Shown: positions 1-53,428 of the stretch, one piece after another | Numbering within the stretch: position 1 is the first letter of the stretch | Layout of the letters: each line of letters starts with the position of its first letter | Source of the DNA: Halosegnis marinus | Lineage (GTDB): Archaea > Halobacteriota > Halobacteria > Halobacteriales > Haloarculaceae | NCBI RefSeq assembly: GCF_029338355.1 | Contig: NZ_CP119802.1 | Location: 2,356,001-2,420,000, forward strand | Direction: 5' to 3' | Length of the DNA: 64,000 nucleotides | Notes under the pieces: generated by a model | Seen by the model: the letters and a program-made list of their open reading frames with translations, nothing else | Database searches by the model: none | What the model was told of the DNA's origin: nothing | Program-made: the position numbers and the translations under genes

Positions 1-1172
1 TCCGCCTCGGTGAACGCTTCCTCGTTCGCCTCCGGCAGGCCGTAGTAGCCCTGCATCACGTTCGGGCCGTTGATGACGAGTTCGCCGACCACGTCGTCCA
101 GCTCCGTCTCGTCGTCGACCGGCCCCTTCGGGACGGGGTCGAGCTTGCGGAACTCGTGGTCGACGATCATCGCCTCCATGCCGGGGAGCGTCTTCCCGAT
201 GGAACCGGGGCGGCGGTCGCCCGGCCGGTTCGCGTGGGTCACCGGCGAGGTCTCCGTCAGCCCGTACCCCTCGAACAGCTCCACGTCGAACATCTCCTCG
301 AACCGCTGCATCACCTCGATGGGGAGCGAGGAGCCGCCGGAGTTGGCGAACTCGACCGAGGAGAGGTGGTACTCCTCGGCGCCGGGCGTGTTCACCACGT
401 CGTTGAACATCGCCGGCACGCCGTGGACGTGCGTGATGCCCTCGCTCTCGATGAGGCCGAGCGCCTCCTCGGCGTCCCACGCCGGGAGCGGCCAGTACGA
501 GCCGCCCTCGAACAGCGTCGATATCATCGTGATGGTCATCCCGTAGATGTGGAACAGCGGGAGCACGCCGAGGAACTTGTCGTCGGGGTCGATGCCGTCG
601 TGTATCTCCGCGGAGGCGCGCGCGTCGAACGCGAGGTTGTGGTGCGTCAGGAGGACGCCCTTCGGCTGGCCGGTCGTCCCCGAGGTGTACGGCTGGACGG
701 CCACGTCGTCGTCCTCGCGGTCGACGGTCGCGAGCGTGTCGTCGGCGAGGAACGCGCCGAACTCGGTCGCGCCGTCGGCGTCGCCGCCAACGGAGACGAC
801 GGTGTGGACGTCGGTGTCGTCCTGGACCTCCTTCACCTGCGGCACCAGGTCGGCGAGGCCGACGACGGCCTTCGCTCCCGAGTCGGAGAGCAGGTGGCTG
901 ATCTCCCGGGACTTGTACTGCGGGTTCATCGGGACGACGATAGCGCCGGCCCGGAGCGTACCGACGAACGCCGTCACGTACTGCGGGAGGTTCGGCAGGT
1001 ACAGCCCCACACGGTCGCCGGGCTCGACGCCCGCGTCGGCGAGCGCCTGCGCGAACTGGCCGGCGCGCGCCCAGAACTGCTCGTAGGTGAACTCCTGCCC
1101 CTGGAAGCCGATGGCGGTCGCGTCCGGGTGCGCCGCCGCGGTCTCCTCGATATCAGCAACGAGGTTACTCAT
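1..1172 (-). CDS. acyl-CoA synthetase (AMP-forming), 3' end cut by window
   Basis: Activates a carboxylic acid, probably a fatty acid, to its CoA thioester through an acyl-adenylate in the cytoplasm. About 390 residues are present. The AMP-binding core is clear: YTSGTTGQPKGV near residue 160, LPLFHIYG near 195 and the adenylation motif GYGLTETSP near 299. The C-terminal lid domain lies beyond the left edge. The start is the ATG reading MSNLVADIEETAAAHPDA, the usual start context of FadD-like haloarchaeal ligases. The frame has no stop to the window edge. Substrate cannot be read from sequence; the several CoA enzymes in the window make beta-oxidation-type metabolism plausible. Confidence 0.9.
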   Translation of the reverse strand, partial: MSNLVADIEETAAAHPDATAIGFQGQEFTYEQFWARAGQFAQALADAGVEPGDRVGLYLPNLPQYVTAFVGTLRAGAIVVPMNPQYKSREISHLLSDSGAKAVVGLADLVPQVKEVQDDTDVHTVVSVGGDADGATEFGAFLADDTLATVDREDDDVAVQPYTSGTTGQPKGVLLTHHNLAFDARASAEIHDGIDPDDKFLGVLPLFHIYGMTITMISTLFEGGSYWPLPAWDAEEALGLIESEGITHVHGVPAMFNDVVNTPGAEEYHLSSVEFANSGGSSLPIEVMQRFEEMFDVELFEGYGLTETSPVTHANRPGDRRPGSIGKTLPGMEAMIVDHEFRKLDPVPKGPVDDETELDDVVGELVINGPNVMQGYYGLPEANEEAFTEA

Positions 1173-9946: not shown

Positions 9947-10941
9947 GGGGCCAGCGCCTCGGTCGTCGCCCGTATCTCCTCGACGGTCGCCTCGCGCGGG
10001 AACGACACCGACACCGCGTCGACCTCGTCCATCGCCTCCCAATCGCGTAGCTGTTCGCGCGCCTCGTCGGGCGTCCCCGCGACGGCCAGCGAGTCGAGCA
10101 GGTCGTCGTCGATGGCCGCGACGGCCTCGCCGTGGTCGCCGGCCTGCCACGCGTCGTGGACGGCGTGGGCGGTTTCCTCGTGGCCCTGTCGCGCCAGCGA
10201 GTCACGGTAGTAGGTCCCCATACCGCCGAGGTAGAACGCCGTGTGTTGCCGCACTATCTCCCTCGCGCGCTCGCGGTCCTCCAGCGCCGCGCAAGTGAGT
10301 GACATGGTCGTGCGCGGACGGTCGTCGGCGTCGCCCATCTCCGCGCCGGCGAGCAGGTCGTCGTGTCGCTCGCGCAGGCCGTCGCGCGTGAACATCAGCG
10401 CGTGCCAGCCGTCGGCGAACCGCCCGGCGAGTTCGACGGCCTTCGGACCCATCCCGGCGGTGTCCACGGCCGGGGCGGGGTCGGGCGCGTCGCACCTGAG
10501 CCGGAAGCCCGAGAGGTCGAAGTACTCGCCGTCGTACTCGACCGTCTCGCCCGACAGCACCCGCTTGACGATATCGACCGTCTCGCGCGTGCGCCGGAGG
10601 GGGTTCCCGAAGTCGGCGCCGTGCCAGTTCTCGATGACCACGGGACCGGAGGGGCCGAGTCCCAGCCGGAACCGGTCGTCGGAGACCTCCTGCAGGGTCG
10701 CGGCGGTCTGCCCGATGAGCGCCGGCGACCGGGAGTAGACGGGCATGATAGACGTGCCGATGCCGATCTCGTCGGTGGCGTGGGCGATGCTCGTCAGGAC
10801 GGTAACGGCGTCGCGCCCCCACGTCTCGGGGAGCCACGCGCGACCGTAGCCCAGTTCCTCCGCGGTCTCGGCCATCCCGACGAGCGCGTCCACGCTCGGC
10901 TGGGCCGCGACGGGGAGGAACACCTCGCGGTCGGCGCTCAT
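9943..10941 (-). CDS. LLM-class (F420-dependent type) oxidoreductase
   Basis: A 332-residue luciferase-like TIM-barrel oxidoreductase, closest in appearance to coenzyme F420-dependent Mer-like enzymes. Visible blocks are AWLPETWGRDA, GIGTSIMPVYSRSP, RLGLGPSGP and DTAGMGPKAVELAGRFADGW. The start MSADREVFLP overlaps the stop of the upstream SDR gene in an ATGA arrangement, so the two are co-translated. The pair may act in sequence on a carbonyl substrate, but this is inference. F420 versus FMN use cannot be told from sequence; F420 is favoured because haloarchaea make it. Confidence 0.85.
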   Translation of the reverse strand: MSADREVFLPVAAQPSVDALVGMAETAEELGYGRAWLPETWGRDAVTVLTSIAHATDEIGIGTSIMPVYSRSPALIGQTAATLQEVSDDRFRLGLGPSGPVVIENWHGADFGNPLRRTRETVDIVKRVLSGETVEYDGEYFDLSGFRLRCDAPDPAPAVDTAGMGPKAVELAGRFADGWHALMFTRDGLRERHDDLLAGAEMGDADDRPRTTMSLTCAALEDRERAREIVRQHTAFYLGGMGTYYRDSLARQGHEETAHAVHDAWQAGDHGEAVAAIDDDLLDSLAVAGTPDEAREQLRDWEAMDEVDAVSVSFPREATVEEIRATTEALAP

Positions 10942-11723
10942 ACCTCGTGGCTCTCCTCGATGGCGGGCAGTCCCTTCGCCTCGATGGTCTCGCCGACGAG
11001 ATACGAGGAGGCGTCGCTGGCGAGGAACTGGACGATGTCGGCCATCTCCGCCGACAGACCCATCCGGCGCTTGACGGTGTCGCGCTCGACGTTGTCGGCG
11101 GAGACGCCCATCTGCGACTCGACGCCGGGCGTGGCGACGAAGCCGGGGGCGATGCAGTTCACGCGGATGTCGTGGGCCGCGTACTCGTACGCGAGCGTCG
11201 TCGTGAAGTTCACGACGGCGGCCTTCGCCGCGCCGTAGTGGCTCATGTACGGCGACCCCTTCGTCCCCGCGACGGATGCGAAGTTGACGATGGCGCCGCC
11301 GCCGTCCTGTTCCTGCATCCGCTCGCCCGCGGCCTGCGCGCAGTGGAACGTCCCGTGGAGGTTGATGTCCACGATGGTCTTCCAGCCGTTCTCCGAGATG
11401 TCGTCGAAGCCGGCCATGAACGACGCGCCCGCGTTGTTGACGAGCGTGTCGATGCGGCCGAACTCCTCGACGGTGGCGTCCATCAACGCCTCGACGGCGT
11501 CGCGGTCGCGCACGTCGCACTCGACGGCGATGGCCTCGCCCGGCCGGTCCGACTCGTTGATGCCCTCGGCGACCGCGTCCACCTTCTCCTGGTCGCGCGA
11601 GGAGACGACGACGTTCGCGCCGTCCGCCGCGAGCACCTCCGCGGTGACCTTCCCGATACCCTGACTCGACCCCGTGATGACGACGACGTCCCCGTCGACG
11701 CTGAATCGTTCGTTCCGTGTCAT
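10938..11723 (-). CDS. short-chain dehydrogenase/reductase
   Basis: A 261-residue classical SDR that interconverts a hydroxyl and a keto group with NAD(P). The cofactor loop is TGSSQGIG (residues 17-24) and the structural NNAG is at 96-99. The catalytic Ser150, Tyr163 and Lys167 are all present (FASVAG, HYGAAK). The length and the glucose-1-DH/FabG-like C-terminus are normal. It is translationally coupled to the LLM oxidoreductase downstream. A 13-base palindrome at 11810-11822 sits in the divergent promoter region shared with the metallo-hydrolase. Confidence 0.9.
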   Translation of the reverse strand: MTRNERFSVDGDVVVITGSSQGIGKVTAEVLAADGANVVVSSRDQEKVDAVAEGINESDRPGEAIAVECDVRDRDAVEALMDATVEEFGRIDTLVNNAGASFMAGFDDISENGWKTIVDINLHGTFHCAQAAGERMQEQDGGGAIVNFASVAGTKGSPYMSHYGAAKAAVVNFTTTLAYEYAAHDIRVNCIAPGFVATPGVESQMGVSADNVERDTVKRRMGLSAEMADIVQFLASDASSYLVGETIEAKGLPAIEESHEV

Positions 11724-11873: not shown

Positions 11874-12836
11874 ATGAATCAGGGCCACGCCGTCGCGGTC
11901 CACCGCATCGAGTTCGGGGTGGACTGGCCGCCCGGCCACGTCGCCTGCTACCTCGTCGACGCCGCCGAACCCGTCCTCGTGGACGCCGGCACCCCGCAGG
12001 GGCTGGCCGGCGGCGAGGAGACGGCGACGTTCCGGGCCGGCCTCGCCGAGGCCGGCTACGAACCGGAGGACATCGAACACCTCGTCGTCACCCACCCGCA
12101 CGTCGACCACGTCGGACAGGTCCCGACGGTGCTGGAGGCGGGGGACCCGACCGTGTACGCGCCGGCCGGCGTCCGCGAGCGGTTCGCCCGCGACGCCGAC
12201 GCGCTGGCCGACCGCGTCCGCGCGAACGCGAGCGCCTACGGCCTCACGGGGGAGACGCTCGACCGGGAGGTCGCCGCCGCCGTCGAGTCGCTGGAGCGCG
12301 ACCGCGACCTCCTCCCGCCCGACCGCGTGGACGTGTGGCTGGAGCCGGGCCGGGTCGAACTCGGCCCGCTCGACGCGACGGCCGTCCACACCCCCGGCCA
12401 CCAGGCCGACCACCTCGCGTACCTGCTCGACGACGACGTGTTGCTGTCGGGCGATACCGCGATGGCCCCGTTCCGCCCCGTCCTGCTCCACGACGGGATG
12501 GACGACGGCCACACGGAGGCGTTCCCCGGCGCGTTCGCCGCGCTCGACCGCCTCGCGGAACACGACCCCGAGCGGGTGTATCCGGGTCACGGCGAGGTCC
12601 ACGACCGCCTCGACGAGGTGGTCGAGCGCGACCGCGGGAAGCTCACGTCGCGGCTCGACCGCGTCGAGTCGCTGGTCGCGGACGGGAACGACACCCTCCA
12701 CGCGGTCGCGGCGGCGCTGACCCCGAGCGTCGAGACGCGCCGGATGTTCTCCGAGACGATGAGCGCGCTCGCCCACCTCGAACGCGAGGGGCGCATCGAG
12801 CGGGAGACGGTCGAGGGGGTGTACCGGTTCCGATGA
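11874..12836 (+). CDS. MBL-fold metallo-hydrolase
   Basis: A 320-residue metallo-beta-lactamase-fold hydrolase. The metal signature THPHVDHVG gives His74, His76, Asp78 and His79; the further ligands appear in HTPGHQADHL and the YPGHGEVHD loop. The C-terminal 70 residues look like a winged-helix tail, as in LACTB2/MBL-fold proteins (ALAHLEREGRIERETVEG). The start MNQGHAVAVHR at 11874 is 26 codons inside a longer open frame; a CTTATTCG element about 27 bases upstream fits it. The stop overlaps the HAD gene start (ATGA), indicating co-translation. Substrate is not predictable. Confidence 0.87.
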   Translation: MNQGHAVAVHRIEFGVDWPPGHVACYLVDAAEPVLVDAGTPQGLAGGEETATFRAGLAEAGYEPEDIEHLVVTHPHVDHVGQVPTVLEAGDPTVYAPAGVRERFARDADALADRVRANASAYGLTGETLDREVAAAVESLERDRDLLPPDRVDVWLEPGRVELGPLDATAVHTPGHQADHLAYLLDDDVLLSGDTAMAPFRPVLLHDGMDDGHTEAFPGAFAALDRLAEHDPERVYPGHGEVHDRLDEVVERDRGKLTSRLDRVESLVADGNDTLHAVAAALTPSVETRRMFSETMSALAHLEREGRIERETVEGVYRFR

Positions 12837-13513
12837 CCCGCTACGACGCGGTCTTTTTCGACCTCGGCGGGGTCGTCGTCGAACTGAAGTCCATCCGCGA
12901 GGGGTACGCGCTGTTTGTCGAACGGCTGACAGAAGAGTACGACCTGCCCGAGGACGCGCTCGACCGCTGGAAATCCGCGCTCGGCGCGCACTTCAAGGGG
13001 CGCGAGGGGACCGAGTACCGGACCGCCCGCGAGGGCTACCGGAAGGCGACGACCGCGCTGTTCGACGGGTCGCCCCCGCCCGAGGCCGAGTGGCGCGCGA
13101 TGCTGGAGGCGGCGAGCGACGAGACGACCCGGCCGGAGCCGGGCGCGGTCGAGGCCGTCCGGGGGGTCGCGGAGCTGGGCGTCCACGTCGGCGTTGTCAG
13201 CGACATCGACACCGCCGAGGCGCACGACCTGCTCGACCGGTTCGGCATCGAGGGCCACGTCGACGCGGTCACCACGAGCGAGGCCGTCGGCCACACCAAG
13301 CCCGACGCCCGGATGTACGAGGACGCGCTCGCGAAGTGGGGCGGCGACGCCGCGGACGGCGTGATGGTCGGGGACCGCTACGACCACGACGTGGCGGGCG
13401 CGGTCGACGCCGGCCTCGACGCCATCGCCTACGGGCCCGACGCGTACGGCCCGAAGGCGACCCACGAGATAGCCGACATGCGCGAGGTGCCCGGCGTCGT
13501 GCGCGGCGAGTAG
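12833..13513 (+). CDS. HAD-superfamily hydrolase
   Basis: A 226-residue haloacid-dehalogenase-type phosphatase. Motif I is FFDLGGVVVEL (nucleophile Asp10, with Gly rather than Asp two residues later, as in the YihX/HAD-IA group). Motif II is VVSDID and the Lys motif is GHTKPDARMY. Motif IV is MVGDRYDHDVAGA. The cap is helical and inserted after motif I (subclass I). It is translationally coupled to the upstream MBL hydrolase. It is probably a small-molecule phosphatase of unknown specificity. Confidence 0.88.
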   Translation: MTRYDAVFFDLGGVVVELKSIREGYALFVERLTEEYDLPEDALDRWKSALGAHFKGREGTEYRTAREGYRKATTALFDGSPPPEAEWRAMLEAASDETTRPEPGAVEAVRGVAELGVHVGVVSDIDTAEAHDLLDRFGIEGHVDAVTTSEAVGHTKPDARMYEDALAKWGGDAADGVMVGDRYDHDVAGAVDAGLDAIAYGPDAYGPKATHEIADMREVPGVVRGE

Positions 13514-17678: not shown

Positions 17679-18890
17679 TCAGAACGTGGGGAGGTTCTCC
17701 AGCTCCGCCTCGTCGAAGTCCATGTCGAAGGCGTCGCGGGCGATGACGCGCTTGTGGACCTCGTCGGCGCCGTCCACGATGCGGAACATCCGGACGGACT
17801 CCGAGAAGTCCGCGAGCGGGAGGTGCCGGGAGATGCCGGCGCCGCCGGTACACTGGATGGCGAGGTCGATGGCTTCCTGCGTGGTGTTCGCCGCGAACAC
17901 CTTGCTCATCGAGACGGGGATGCGCGCCTCCTCGCCGGCGGATATCTGCCGGGCGGCGTGGCGCACCATCGTCCGCACCGCGTGGAGCTCCGTCTCCATC
18001 TCGGCGATGTCGAACCGCTGGGACTGCTTCTCGGAGAGCTTGGAGTCGAACGCGTGGCGGTCGTCCATGTACGTCTTCGCGATGTCGAGCGCGCGCGTCG
18101 CCATCCCGGTGAAGCGCATACAGTGGGTGAGCCGCGCCGGGCCGAGCCGCTGTTGGGCGTGCTTGAACCCCTGGTTCAGTTCGCCGAGCAGGCGGTCCTC
18201 GGGGATCCGGCAGTCGTCGTAGCGGACCTCGGCGTGGCTGGAGTGGACGACGTCCGGGCCGAGGTGCGGGGTCGGCTCGACGACCTCGAAGCCGGGGTTG
18301 TCGGCCTCGACGAGGAACAGCGAGGTACCGTTGTACGGGTGGGCGTCCATGTCCGTCCGGGCCATGACGATGAGGAAGTCGGCCTCCGCGCCCTGCGTGG
18401 ACCACCACTTGTGGCCGTTGATGACCCACTCGTCGCCGTCCTTCTCGGCCGTGGTCTTCATCATCTTCGGGTCGGAGCCGGCGCCCTCGCGGGGCTCAGT
18501 CATCGAGAACGCGGAGACGCGCTCGCCCGCGACGAGGGGGTCGAGGAACTCCTCCTTCTGGGCCTCGGTGCCGACGAGTTCGATGGTGTGCATGTTCCCC
18601 TCGTCGGGCGCGTCCACGCGCATCGCCGAGGCGCCGAGCAGCGAGCGGCCGGCCTCCTCGAACAGCGGCAGCACGTCGGCGAACTCGTAGCCGCCCCCGC
18701 CGTGCTCCTCGCCGATCTGCGGGCAGTAGATGCCTCGCTCCCGGGCTTCCGCGCGCAGGTCCTCGATGACGTCGTGCGGCACCGGACCGTCCCCGAGGTA
18801 CTCCCGCTCAGTCGGGATGACGCGCTCGTCCATGAAGTCGCGGGCCTCCGCTGCGAGTTCCGTGGCGACCTCCGAGTCGTGGTACTCCAT
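17679..18890 (-). CDS. acyl-CoA dehydrogenase of the ACAD10/11 type
   Basis: A 403-residue flavoprotein with the acyl-CoA dehydrogenase fold. It carries FSMTEPREGAGSDP (FAD contact), INGHKWWSTQGA, RLGPARLTHCMRFTGMA and CTGGAGISRHLPLA near the end, then DGADEVHKRVIARDA. The GPxRxxHCMR block and the DGxDEVHR-like tail are features I associate with ACAD10/ACAD11 and bacterial LvaC rather than with fatty-acid dehydrogenases. It is divergent from an APH-type kinase that resembles the N-terminal half of ACAD11. The start at MEYHDSEVATE is preferred over an ATG 11 codons earlier. Confidence 0.9.
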   Translation of the reverse strand: MEYHDSEVATELAAEARDFMDERVIPTEREYLGDGPVPHDVIEDLRAEARERGIYCPQIGEEHGGGGYEFADVLPLFEEAGRSLLGASAMRVDAPDEGNMHTIELVGTEAQKEEFLDPLVAGERVSAFSMTEPREGAGSDPKMMKTTAEKDGDEWVINGHKWWSTQGAEADFLIVMARTDMDAHPYNGTSLFLVEADNPGFEVVEPTPHLGPDVVHSSHAEVRYDDCRIPEDRLLGELNQGFKHAQQRLGPARLTHCMRFTGMATRALDIAKTYMDDRHAFDSKLSEKQSQRFDIAEMETELHAVRTMVRHAARQISAGEEARIPVSMSKVFAANTTQEAIDLAIQCTGGAGISRHLPLADFSESVRMFRIVDGADEVHKRVIARDAFDMDFDEAELENLPTF

Positions 18891-18911
18891 ATCAGGTTCT
18901 TCGGGTACACC

Positions 18912-18924
18912 ATTGTAAAACAAT
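18912..18924. promoter_or_regulatory. dyad ATTGT-AAA-ACAAT between the ACAD and kinase genes
   Basis: A short perfect inverted repeat with 5-base arms, just upstream of the dehydrogenase start in the 126-base divergent promoter. A TAAATATTCC element (from 18960) lies between it and the kinase start. The dyad is a candidate operator for joint control of both genes. Confidence 0.35.
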
Positions 18925-19016
18925 CGCCCCGAACCTCCGAGCCGACCGACACGAACCCGTAAATATTCCTACCCCCAGCGGAAACTGACGCTAACAATGT
19001 TCAAACGCGAGGCACC

Positions 19017-20096
19017 ATGACCGGGGGGGACGACTACTTCGGTCGCATCGTGGACGAGGGGAAACTCGCCGCGTACCTCGAAGCCGAACTCGGCCCCGTG
19101 GACGTCTACGACGTCCGTCACCACAAGGAGGGCCACTCCAACGAGACGCTGTTCGTCACGTGGGGGGGCGACGAACTCGTCGTCCGCCGGCCCCCGCCGG
19201 GCGAGACGGCCGACACGGCCCACGATGTGCTCCGGGAGTTCCGCGTCGTGGACGCGCTCCAGGGGACGGAGGTGCGCGTTCCCGAGACCGTCCTCGCCTG
19301 CGACGACCACGACGTGCTCGGCGCGGACTTCTACGTGATGCGGAAGGTGGAGGGCGACGTGTTCCGCGAATCGGAGCCCGAGCGGTTCGCCAACCCCGAG
19401 GCGCGCCAGCAGGTCGGCTACGAACTCGTCGAGAACCTCGCGCGCATCCACGAGGTGGACTACGACGCCGTCGGGCTGGAGTACGGCGACTTCGGCTACC
19501 CGCCGGGGTTCACCGAGCGACAGGTGAAACGCTGGTCCGAGCAGATAATGTGGGGCTTCGAGGTCACCGCCGAGGAGCGCGAGGTCACCGAACTGTACGA
19601 CGTGATGGAGTGGCTCATGGACAACGTCCCGGAGGACCCGCCCGCGACGCTCGTCCACGGCGACTACAAGCTCGACAACGTGATGTACGGCCCCGGCGAC
19701 GACCCCGAGATCGTCGCCGTGATGGACTGGGAGATGGCGACGCTCGGCGACCCGCTGACGGACCTCGGGTGGATGCTCTCGTACTGGTGGGACCCGAAGG
19801 ACCCCGAGCCGCCCCGCTCGACCGACTCGCTGTCGAACACGTTCATGACCCGCGAGGGGTACCCGACCCGGCGCGATCTCGTGAACCGCTACGAGGAGCT
19901 GACGGGCTTCTCCTACGACAACGACCGCTTCTACCGCGCGCTGGCCGTGTACAAGCTGGCCGGCCTCGGCGAGATGTTCTTCCGCCGCTATCTGGAGGGG
20001 AACAGCGACGACGACATGTACCCGCGGATGCGCGAGGGCGTCCCCGCGCTCGCGGAGCGCGCGCTCCGCATCATCGACGGCGAGGAGCCGCTGTAG
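19017..20096 (+). CDS. APH-type kinase resembling the kinase half of ACAD11 / LvaA
   Basis: A 359-residue aminoglycoside-phosphotransferase-fold kinase. The nucleotide-loop region reads EGHSNETLFVTWGGDELVVRR, the catalytic loop LVHGDYKLDNVMY and the metal motif MDWEMATLGDPLTDL, followed by LSYWWDP. These match the ACAD10/11 kinase domain and bacterial LvaA, known to phosphorylate the 4-hydroxyl of 4-hydroxyacyl-CoA. The gene is divergent from an ACAD10/11-type dehydrogenase, supporting that role over antibiotic resistance. The start is the ATG after GCGAGGCACC; an earlier ATG at 18997 is out of frame. Confidence 0.87.
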   Translation: MTGGDDYFGRIVDEGKLAAYLEAELGPVDVYDVRHHKEGHSNETLFVTWGGDELVVRRPPPGETADTAHDVLREFRVVDALQGTEVRVPETVLACDDHDVLGADFYVMRKVEGDVFRESEPERFANPEARQQVGYELVENLARIHEVDYDAVGLEYGDFGYPPGFTERQVKRWSEQIMWGFEVTAEEREVTELYDVMEWLMDNVPEDPPATLVHGDYKLDNVMYGPGDDPEIVAVMDWEMATLGDPLTDLGWMLSYWWDPKDPEPPRSTDSLSNTFMTREGYPTRRDLVNRYEELTGFSYDNDRFYRALAVYKLAGLGEMFFRRYLEGNSDDDMYPRMREGVPALAERALRIIDGEEPL

Positions 20097-52273: not shown

Positions 52274-53428
52274 ATGACCGACGTGGCAGTTATCGGCGCG
52301 TCGATGACGCGCTTCGGCGAACGCGACGGCTGGGTACGCGACCTGCTCGCGGAGGCGGGCGGGGCCTGTCTCGACGACGCGGGCGTCTCGCCCGACGCCG
52401 TCGACCACCTCTACGTGTCGAACATGGCGAGCGGCGAGTTCGAGGGGCAGACGGGCGTTCCGAACATGCTCGCCCACGACCTCGGTGCCGTCCCCGCCTA
52501 CACCCAGCGCGTCGACCAGACCTCCTCCTCGGGGGGCGCGGGCATCTACGCCGCGTGGCAGTCGGTCGCCTCCGGCGCGAGCGACATGACCCTGCTCGTC
52601 GGGGGCGAGAAGATGACACACCGGACGACCGGCGAGGCGACCGACGTCATCGCCTCGCTCACCCACCCCGTCGAGTACAAGCACGGCGTGACGCTCCCCT
52701 CCTTCGCCGGCCTCACGGCGCGCGCCTACCTGACCGAGTACGACGCCCCGCGCGAGGCGCTCGCCGAGGTCGCGGTGAAGAACCACCGCAACGGCGTGGA
52801 CAACCCCCACGCGCAGTTCCGCAAGGAGATAGACACGGAGACGGCCCTCGACTCGCCGATGGTGGCCGACCCCCTGCGGCTGTACGACTTCTGTCCCATC
52901 ACCGACGGCTCGGCGGCCCTCCTCTTCTGTCCGGTCGAGGTCGCGCGCGAACACGCCGACCAGTTCGTCCGCGTCGCGGGCGTCGGAGGCGCGACGGACA
53001 CCCACGTCGTCCACGAGCGCGCCGACCCGACGACGATGGGCGGCGTGGTCGAGTCGGGCCGGCAGGCGTACGAGACGGCCGGCTACGGCCCGGAGGACGT
53101 CGACGTGGCCGAACTCCACGACATGTTCACCATCCTCGAACTGCTCCAGTACGAGGACCTCGGCTTCGCCGACAAGGGGGCCGGCTGGGAGGACGCCGTC
53201 GAGGGGGTGACCGCGCGCGACGGCGCGATGCCGGTGAACACCTCGGGCGGCCTGAAGTCCAAGGGGCATCCCCTCGGCGCGTCGGGCGTCGCACAGGGGT
53301 ACGAGATATACAAACAAGTGCTCGGCGAGGCCGGCAAGCGGCAGGTCGAGGCCGACGTGGGGCTGGCGTGCAACGTGGGCGGGTTCGGCAACTGCGTCAC
53401 GACCGCGATACTGGAGGTGGCCGAATGA
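52274..53428 (+). CDS. thiolase-family protein with Ser at the nucleophile position
   Basis: A 384-residue archaeal thiolase of the type paired with a DUF35 protein. The region normally ACASGG reads QTSSSGGAG, so the nucleophilic Cys is Ser84. The His motif KGHPLGASG (His332) and GFGNCVTTA (Cys374) remain, as does AELHDMFT. In other archaea such thiolases make acetoacetyl-CoA for the mevalonate pathway or cleave 3-ketoacyl-CoA. Loss of the Cys may mean altered chemistry or a non-catalytic partner. It overlaps the DUF35 gene start (ATGA). Confidence 0.85.
   Translation: MTDVAVIGASMTRFGERDGWVRDLLAEAGGACLDDAGVSPDAVDHLYVSNMASGEFEGQTGVPNMLAHDLGAVPAYTQRVDQTSSSGGAGIYAAWQSVASGASDMTLLVGGEKMTHRTTGEATDVIASLTHPVEYKHGVTLPSFAGLTARAYLTEYDAPREALAEVAVKNHRNGVDNPHAQFRKEIDTETALDSPMVADPLRLYDFCPITDGSAALLFCPVEVAREHADQFVRVAGVGGATDTHVVHERADPTTMGGVVESGRQAYETAGYGPEDVDVAELHDMFTILELLQYEDLGFADKGAGWEDAVEGVTARDGAMPVNTSGGLKSKGHPLGASGVAQGYEIYKQVLGEAGKRQVEADVGLACNVGGFGNCVTTAILEVAE

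Follow-up and report, generated by a model that had tools for sequence, protein, structure and literature searches.

A divergent kinase and acyl-CoA dehydrogenase pair in Halosegnis marinus as a probable split archaeal form of the ACAD10/ACAD11 and LvaA/LvaC module

Introduction

What reaction is served by a haloarchaeal gene pair in which an acyl-CoA dehydrogenase (ACAD) family protein and an APH-type kinase are encoded back to back, with their starts facing away from a common promoter region? The pair lies in a 64,000-nucleotide stretch of the Halosegnis marinus genome, here called the window, and the original prediction took it for a split ACAD10/ACAD11 system that handles 4-hydroxyacyl-CoA. 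Two groups of known systems provide the comparison. The bacterial lva operon encodes the kinase LvaA, LvaB, the ACAD LvaC, the SDR LvaD and the ligase LvaE, and in Pseudomonas putida LvaB is needed together with LvaA; in this species the kinase–ACAD step is described as required for growth on levulinate. In mammalian ACAD10 and ACAD11 an APH kinase and an ACAD are fused, ACAD10 additionally containing a HAD domain, and phosphorylation by the kinase followed by elimination in the ACAD has been shown for both (PMC12440821, PMC11342911). These papers cite LvaA and LvaC for the same kinase–elimination reaction (PMC12440821, PMC11342911).

Results

The open reading frames, strands, coordinates and sequence blocks that had been described all match: the ACAD starts at an ATG at 18890 (−) and the kinase at an ATG at 19017 (+), leaving a gap of 126 bases (Table 1). 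The ACAD is covered by the three Pfam ACAD domains N, M and C (E 1e-36, 8e-24 and 1e-15), with RLGPARLTHCMR at residues 248-259 and DGADEVHKR beginning at residue 373. The kinase matches Pfam APH (PF01636, E 2e-45), with LVHGDYKLDN at residues 212-221 and MDWE at residue 236. Neither protein scores above the cut-off of any curated NCBIfam model, and LvaA and LvaC of the Pseudomonas lva operon likewise fall below every such cut-off, so that automatic annotation is unable to decide the family.

Table 1. Positions of the gene pair, its sequence elements and candidate partner genes in the window.
Feature	Position	Strand	Basis or remark
Acyl-CoA synthetase, cut by window edge, candidate activating ligase	1..1172	-	60% to H. 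mediterranei cluster ligase
SDR-family dehydrogenase, candidate 4-oxoacyl-CoA reductase (putative LvaD role)	10938..11723	-	68% to H. mediterranei SDR
HAD-superfamily protein, DxGGV motif I, candidate accessory protein	12833..13513	+	46% to H. mediterranei HAD
ACAD-family protein, 403 aa, predicted 4-phosphoacyl-CoA phospholyase/isomerase, LvaC/ACAD10-11 type	17679..18890	-	Pfam, identities, tree
Codon of catalytic Asp D373, = ACAD11 D753	17772..17774	-	Alignment; Glu in conventional ACADs (EGTSEIQ)
Phosphate-pocket motif RLGPARLTHCMR	18114..18149	-	Residue alignment to 8v3u/2wbi; conserved in haloarchaeal homologues
Divergent intergenic/promoter region	18891..19016	.	126 bases; elements kept in relatives
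ACAD-proximal element ATTGTAAAACAAT (TTTTACAAT in gene orientation)	18912..18924	.	TTTTACA-type, kept in relatives
Kinase-proximal element CTAACAATGTTCA, degraded copy of palindrome CTWACAATGTTAG	18991..19003	+	Two mismatches
APH-type kinase, 359 aa, predicted 4-hydroxyacyl-CoA kinase	19017..20096	+	Pfam, PDB matches, kept HGDYKLDN/DWE/RQVKRW

Cryo-EM and mutagenesis of ACAD11 have shown that R626, H634, R637 and the catalytic D753 are needed for the ACAD step (PMC12440821), and all four are present in the window ACAD. By residue alignment its R248, R253, H256 and R259 correspond to R626, R631, H634 and R637 of mouse ACAD11, and an Asp stands in the D753 column, where conventional haloarchaeal paralogues have Glu. 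The position of this catalytic Asp is fixed by the structures, as the A* mutant entry 8v3v has Asn in the D373 column whereas 8v3u and the window protein have Asp. The conventional ACAD paralogues in the haloarchaeal loci that we fetched carry EGTSEIQ-type sequence and lack HCMR. A proline described as specific to ACAD10/11 (human ACAD11 P463), yet not shown to be needed (PMC11342911), is Ala in the window ACAD and Ala, Pro or Gln in its relatives, the column being taken from our own alignment; the LvaC and Thermus ACADs carry Pro there.

Among PDB entries the ACAD matches 4hr3 first and then ACAD11 (8v3u, 8v3v, 2wbi), ahead of conventional ACADs. The structural-genomics entries 4hr3 (ACAD) and 3dxp (kinase), among the best PDB matches of the pair, have names that assign no activity, and 4hr3 carries HAMR where the window ACAD has HCMR. 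Identity is 41% to LvaC (the protein encoded in the lva operon of Pseudomonas plasmid p12939-PER), 42% to the Thermus homologue, 34% to ACAD11 and 30-37% to conventional ACADs. In a 64-row tree of haloarchaeal proteins, LvaC, Thermus, Rhodococcus, ACAD11, others and conventional ACADs, a branch of 1.16 with support 100/99 separates the HCMR-type from the conventional ACADs, and the 39 haloarchaeal rows form a single clade (100/99) adjoining LvaC and Thermus (98/92). The Thermus row has RLDPARLTHCMR, outside the strict HCMR pattern, and is placed with the HCMR-type group. AU tests did not reject other orders of the haloarchaeal, LvaC and ACAD11 branches, the deepest haloarchaeal branch included (p 0.28-0.47), and we therefore limit the claim to group membership and propose no branch order. 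Judged by residue alignment and tree, the window ACAD is a member of the ACAD10/11–LvaC phospholyase-type group and falls with ACAD11 and LvaC, not with the ordinary beta-oxidation enzymes.

The kinase leads to a similar assignment. In ACAD11, D220, N225 and R176 are catalytic or CoA-contacting (PMC12440821), and D216, N221 and R168 of the window kinase align to them; the protein thus carries the HGDxxxxN block, the DWE motif (D237) and the CoA-contacting Arg. Its PDB matches are 9o56, ACAD11 (8v3v; E 2e-48) and 3dxp (E 2e-47), and by search scores it is nearer ACAD11 than LvaA, to which it is 22% identical. In the kinase tree it groups with ACAD11, 3dxp and 9o56, apart from LvaA and the Thermus kinase, with AU tests retaining a grouping with LvaA (p 0.10-0.21). 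Both the matches and the tree favour a place among ACAD11-type kinases. We also considered a mosaic origin, an LvaC-type ACAD joined to an ACAD11-type kinase, at which the trees hint; as the AU tests keep the alternatives, we do not make this a firm claim. Separately, haloarchaea contain a second APH kinase family, about 39% identical to the window kinase (L077:6077-9083, and loci L026, L027 and L031-L034). In Halorussus vallis a kinase of this second family is divergent from an ACAD of 594 aa that lacks HCMR, and the two may form a further kinase–ACAD pairing.

Do the two genes travel together? In a class-level sample of 292 genomes, at thresholds of E <= 1e-70 for the kinase and E <= 1e-110 for the ACAD, each is found in 145, and the two genome lists are identical. 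The DNA pattern GPxR..HCMR matched 127 of the 292 genomes, every one among those with the pair; four of the remaining 18 were inspected and have RLGGGRLTHCMR (G004, G016, G143) or RLSPARLTHCMR (G005). Where genomes of one genus differ (for example g4, g6, g10, g24, g37 and g38), the presence or absence of kinase and ACAD changes together, and some genomes hold several copies of both. Across 295 genomes sampled from the phylum, kinase matches are confined to the window's own order. An HCMR-type ACAD lies within about 1.1 kb of the kinase in 45 of 80 named kinase loci, and the two are divergent in all 45, across many genera. Identity to the best homologues in other species reaches 84% for the kinase and 81-82% for the ACAD. 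The conservation of both proteins, their shared distribution and the recurring divergent layout place the locus above chance.

Three genomes of the window's genus (G002, G003 and G004) keep the kinase in place with no adjoining ACAD and have another family ACAD on the kinase contig at a distance of roughly 30-55 kb, the G003 match being partial, which indicates that the partners travel together even when unlinked. The distant ACADs are different family members, that of G004 with RLGGGRLTHCMR, an exchange of partner inside the genus.

Which other genes might belong to the pathway? On plasmid pHME132 of Haloferax mediterranei the divergent pair, kinase E6P09_RS18925 and ACAD E6P09_RS18920, has as flanking genes a HAD gene, an SDR gene, a gene for a hydroxyacyl-CoA dehydrogenase (HCDH) fused to an enoyl-CoA hydratase (ECH), another ACAD gene and a gene for a fatty acyl-CoA ligase. 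Over 112 kinase loci we count an SDR at 51 (16 named genera), a HAD at 44 (14), an HCDH-ECH gene at 35 (10) and a winged-helix regulator at 34 (12), numbers that partly reflect shared descent; incidental linkage is nonetheless unlikely, as these neighbours occur in many genera and persist beside kinases without an adjoining ACAD. Neighbourhoods otherwise vary and include HCDH/ECH fusions, MaoC, CaiB-type CoA-transferases and branched-chain transporters. The SDR and ligase beside the H. mediterranei pair are of the right families, yet only 32-34% identical to LvaD and LvaE, and the ligase at the window edge is 27% identical to LvaE.

The expectation that thiolase, MDR and other genes of the window would complete the pathway is borne out only in part. 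The MDR gene is a local neighbour, present in four named genera, and the thiolase (52274-53428) scores highest with models of the archaeal acetoacetyl-CoA-thiolase type and looks, from these model scores, like such an enzyme and not like a beta-oxidation thiolase, so that a complete pathway within the window is a weakened proposal. The SDR, HAD and ligase, relatives of which flank the H. mediterranei pair, would be better partners than the thiolase or the MDR enzyme. Four strong 3-hydroxyacyl-CoA dehydrogenase genes occur in the genome, and the pathway product could therefore be consumed. A plasmid of Natrinema caseinilyticum (L085:16273-17206) carries a gene annotated as hydroxyacid-oxoacid transhydrogenase, an enzyme type active on 4-hydroxybutyrate, about 7 kb from an HCMR ACAD.

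The LvaB family (DUF6285) was found in none of 116 haloarchaeal genomes, with Caulobacter and Thermus controls positive. In the HAD proteins near haloarchaeal kinases motif I is nearly always DxGGV, and DLG-type motifs also occur in some active HAD phosphatases. The second Asp is missing from the ACAD10 HAD domain as well, and this domain reportedly holds back the kinase (PMC11342911); the HAD protein beside the haloarchaeal kinase may act as a phosphatase or have a regulatory role.

The intergenic DNA holds one element ahead of each gene. The palindrome CTWACAATGTTAG occurs exactly, as one copy per genome and at the kinase, in five related genomes (G002, G004, G005, G013 and G020); the window copy, with its two changes, is by itself not above chance within the window. 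On the ACAD side, 21 of 25 divergent loci have a TTTTACAATGT-like element of the TTTTACA type at -26 to -37 from the start of the ACAD, and some unlinked ACAD genes (L036, L052 and L090) are preceded by one like it. Its TTTTACA part may be a TATA box. The shared core ACAATGTT suggests a common operator, and the kinase-promoter palindrome together with the ACAD element suggests a dedicated putative regulator, with CTAACAATGTTAG as its candidate binding sequence.

Discussion

Our preferred reading, which we hold at a probability of about 0.86, is that the pair is a split archaeal ACAD10/ACAD11–LvaA/LvaC module that phosphorylates 4-hydroxyacyl-CoA and then eliminates the phosphate to give trans-2-enoyl-CoA. 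The kinase would use ATP to phosphorylate the 4-hydroxyl group, yielding 4-phosphoacyl-CoA, from which the ACAD would eliminate phosphate with a redox-active FAD and no net oxidation, and the trans-2-enoyl-CoA would enter beta-oxidation. The substrate would be supplied, and the product consumed, by an acyl-CoA ligase, an SDR interconverting 4-oxo- and 4-hydroxyacyl-CoA, and enzymes of beta-oxidation, with genes close to the pair or in other parts of the genome; the roles given to the SDR, the HAD protein and the ligase are putative. The kinase-then-elimination chemistry is well supported by homology, and the route, known only from bacteria and eukaryotes, is probably shared by Archaea. Pocket residues, tree, kinase matches and co-occurrence agree on the split ACAD10/11-type module that the original prediction proposed, and none of the outcomes that it named as refuting came about.

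How close is the pair to each known system? With ACAD10/ACAD11 it shares the two domain types, the catalytic Asp, the pocket equivalent to R626/H634/R637, the catalytic residues of the kinase, a nearby HAD gene and the lack of LvaB, without which ACAD10/11 function. It differs from them in that the genes are separate and divergent, the ACAD identity is 34%, the proline is not kept and the HAD scores best with a different subfamily model (TIGR02253) from the ACAD10 HAD domain. The proposed likeness to LvaA/LvaC stands for the ACAD, which at 41% identity shares the motif with LvaC, and for the separate genes; in H. mediterranei an SDR and a ligase of the corresponding families also lie close to the pair. 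The likeness does not extend to the kinase (22%), the divergent layout, the archaeal host or the conserved HAD neighbour, and the absence of DUF6285 rules out strict membership of the lva operon. The Thermus thermophilus pTT27 cluster (ACAD–kinase–DUF6285–histidine phosphatase) has an ACAD 42% identical to that of the window, whereas its kinase is LvaA-type with DUF6285 and its operon co-directional.

What would the substrate be? Levulinate, by way of 4-hydroxyvalerate, is the leading candidate, with activity and chain length predicted from homology. The pair could instead, with the same chemistry, serve longer, branched or cyclic gamma-hydroxyacyl-CoA, for instance from isoprenoids, steroids or oxidised lipids. 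This proposal disputes the substrate alone and leaves the chemistry of the split module intact; ACAD11 takes longer chains (PMC12440821), and varied neighbourhoods and multiple kinase and ACAD copies in some genomes fit it as well. However, H. mediterranei bears the pair and can use levulinate for growth (mu 0.097 per h at 0.6 g/L, in a study that does not name the genes; PMC12455835), and the SDR and ligase by its pair correspond in kind to the arrangement of the lva operon, so that we consider a longer or branched substrate a serious competitor that is nevertheless somewhat doubtful. Considerably less probable is a kinase acting on a hydroxyl elsewhere, as in 3- or 5-hydroxyacyl-CoA, followed by a related elimination: kinase regiospecificity is not readable from sequence and the pocket proline differs, yet the residues that hold the 4-phosphate in the ACAD11 model are conserved, and ACAD10 is reported as a 4-hydroxyacyl-CoA kinase, with 5- and 6-hydroxyhexanoate as comparison substrates (PMC11342911). 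Finally, that a conventional beta-oxidation dehydrogenase and an unrelated small-molecule kinase lie together by accident, as the database names 'acyl-CoA dehydrogenase family', 'isovaleryl-CoA dehydrogenase' (one haloarchaeal member) and 'aminoglycoside phosphotransferase' might suggest, is very improbable and, for a conventional beta-oxidation ACAD or an aminoglycoside kinase as such, ruled out by the catalytic Asp and the HCMR/Arg pocket where ordinary ACADs carry other residues, by the tree and by the shared genomes and uniformly divergent linkage.

Returning to the split 4-hydroxyacyl-CoA module, we tentatively suggest, at a little under even odds, that about half of haloarchaea have a third architecture, composed of an LvaC-like phospholyase and an ACAD10/11-like kinase, without LvaB, with a co-located HAD protein that might control or clear the phospho-intermediate, and with a dedicated operator. 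If so, the gene set would resemble the HAD–kinase–ACAD domain set of ACAD10.

Archaea go unmentioned in both ACAD10/11 papers (PMC12440821, PMC11342911), and the mostly open-access literature that we searched contains no archaeal assignment of this reaction module and no biochemistry on an archaeal member. A paper that appeared after Rand et al. 2017 and cites it gives lvaABCD homologues for Alpha-, Beta- and Gammaproteobacteria only. What is new, as far as sequence comparison can tell, is that a reaction module already described elsewhere occurs in another domain of life, in an architecture that is split, divergent, free of LvaB and accompanied by putative HAD and SDR partners.

In conclusion, about half of the sampled haloarchaea contain these two families, annotated as 'acyl-CoA dehydrogenase' in one case and as 'phosphotransferase' or 'aminoglycoside phosphotransferase' in the other, and the assignment would give both a function. 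It offers a candidate mechanism for levulinate use in Haloferax mediterranei, an archaeon that makes bioplastic and can be cultured, and a naturally separate, LvaB-free kinase and lyase may provide material for studying the mechanism of ACAD10/11.
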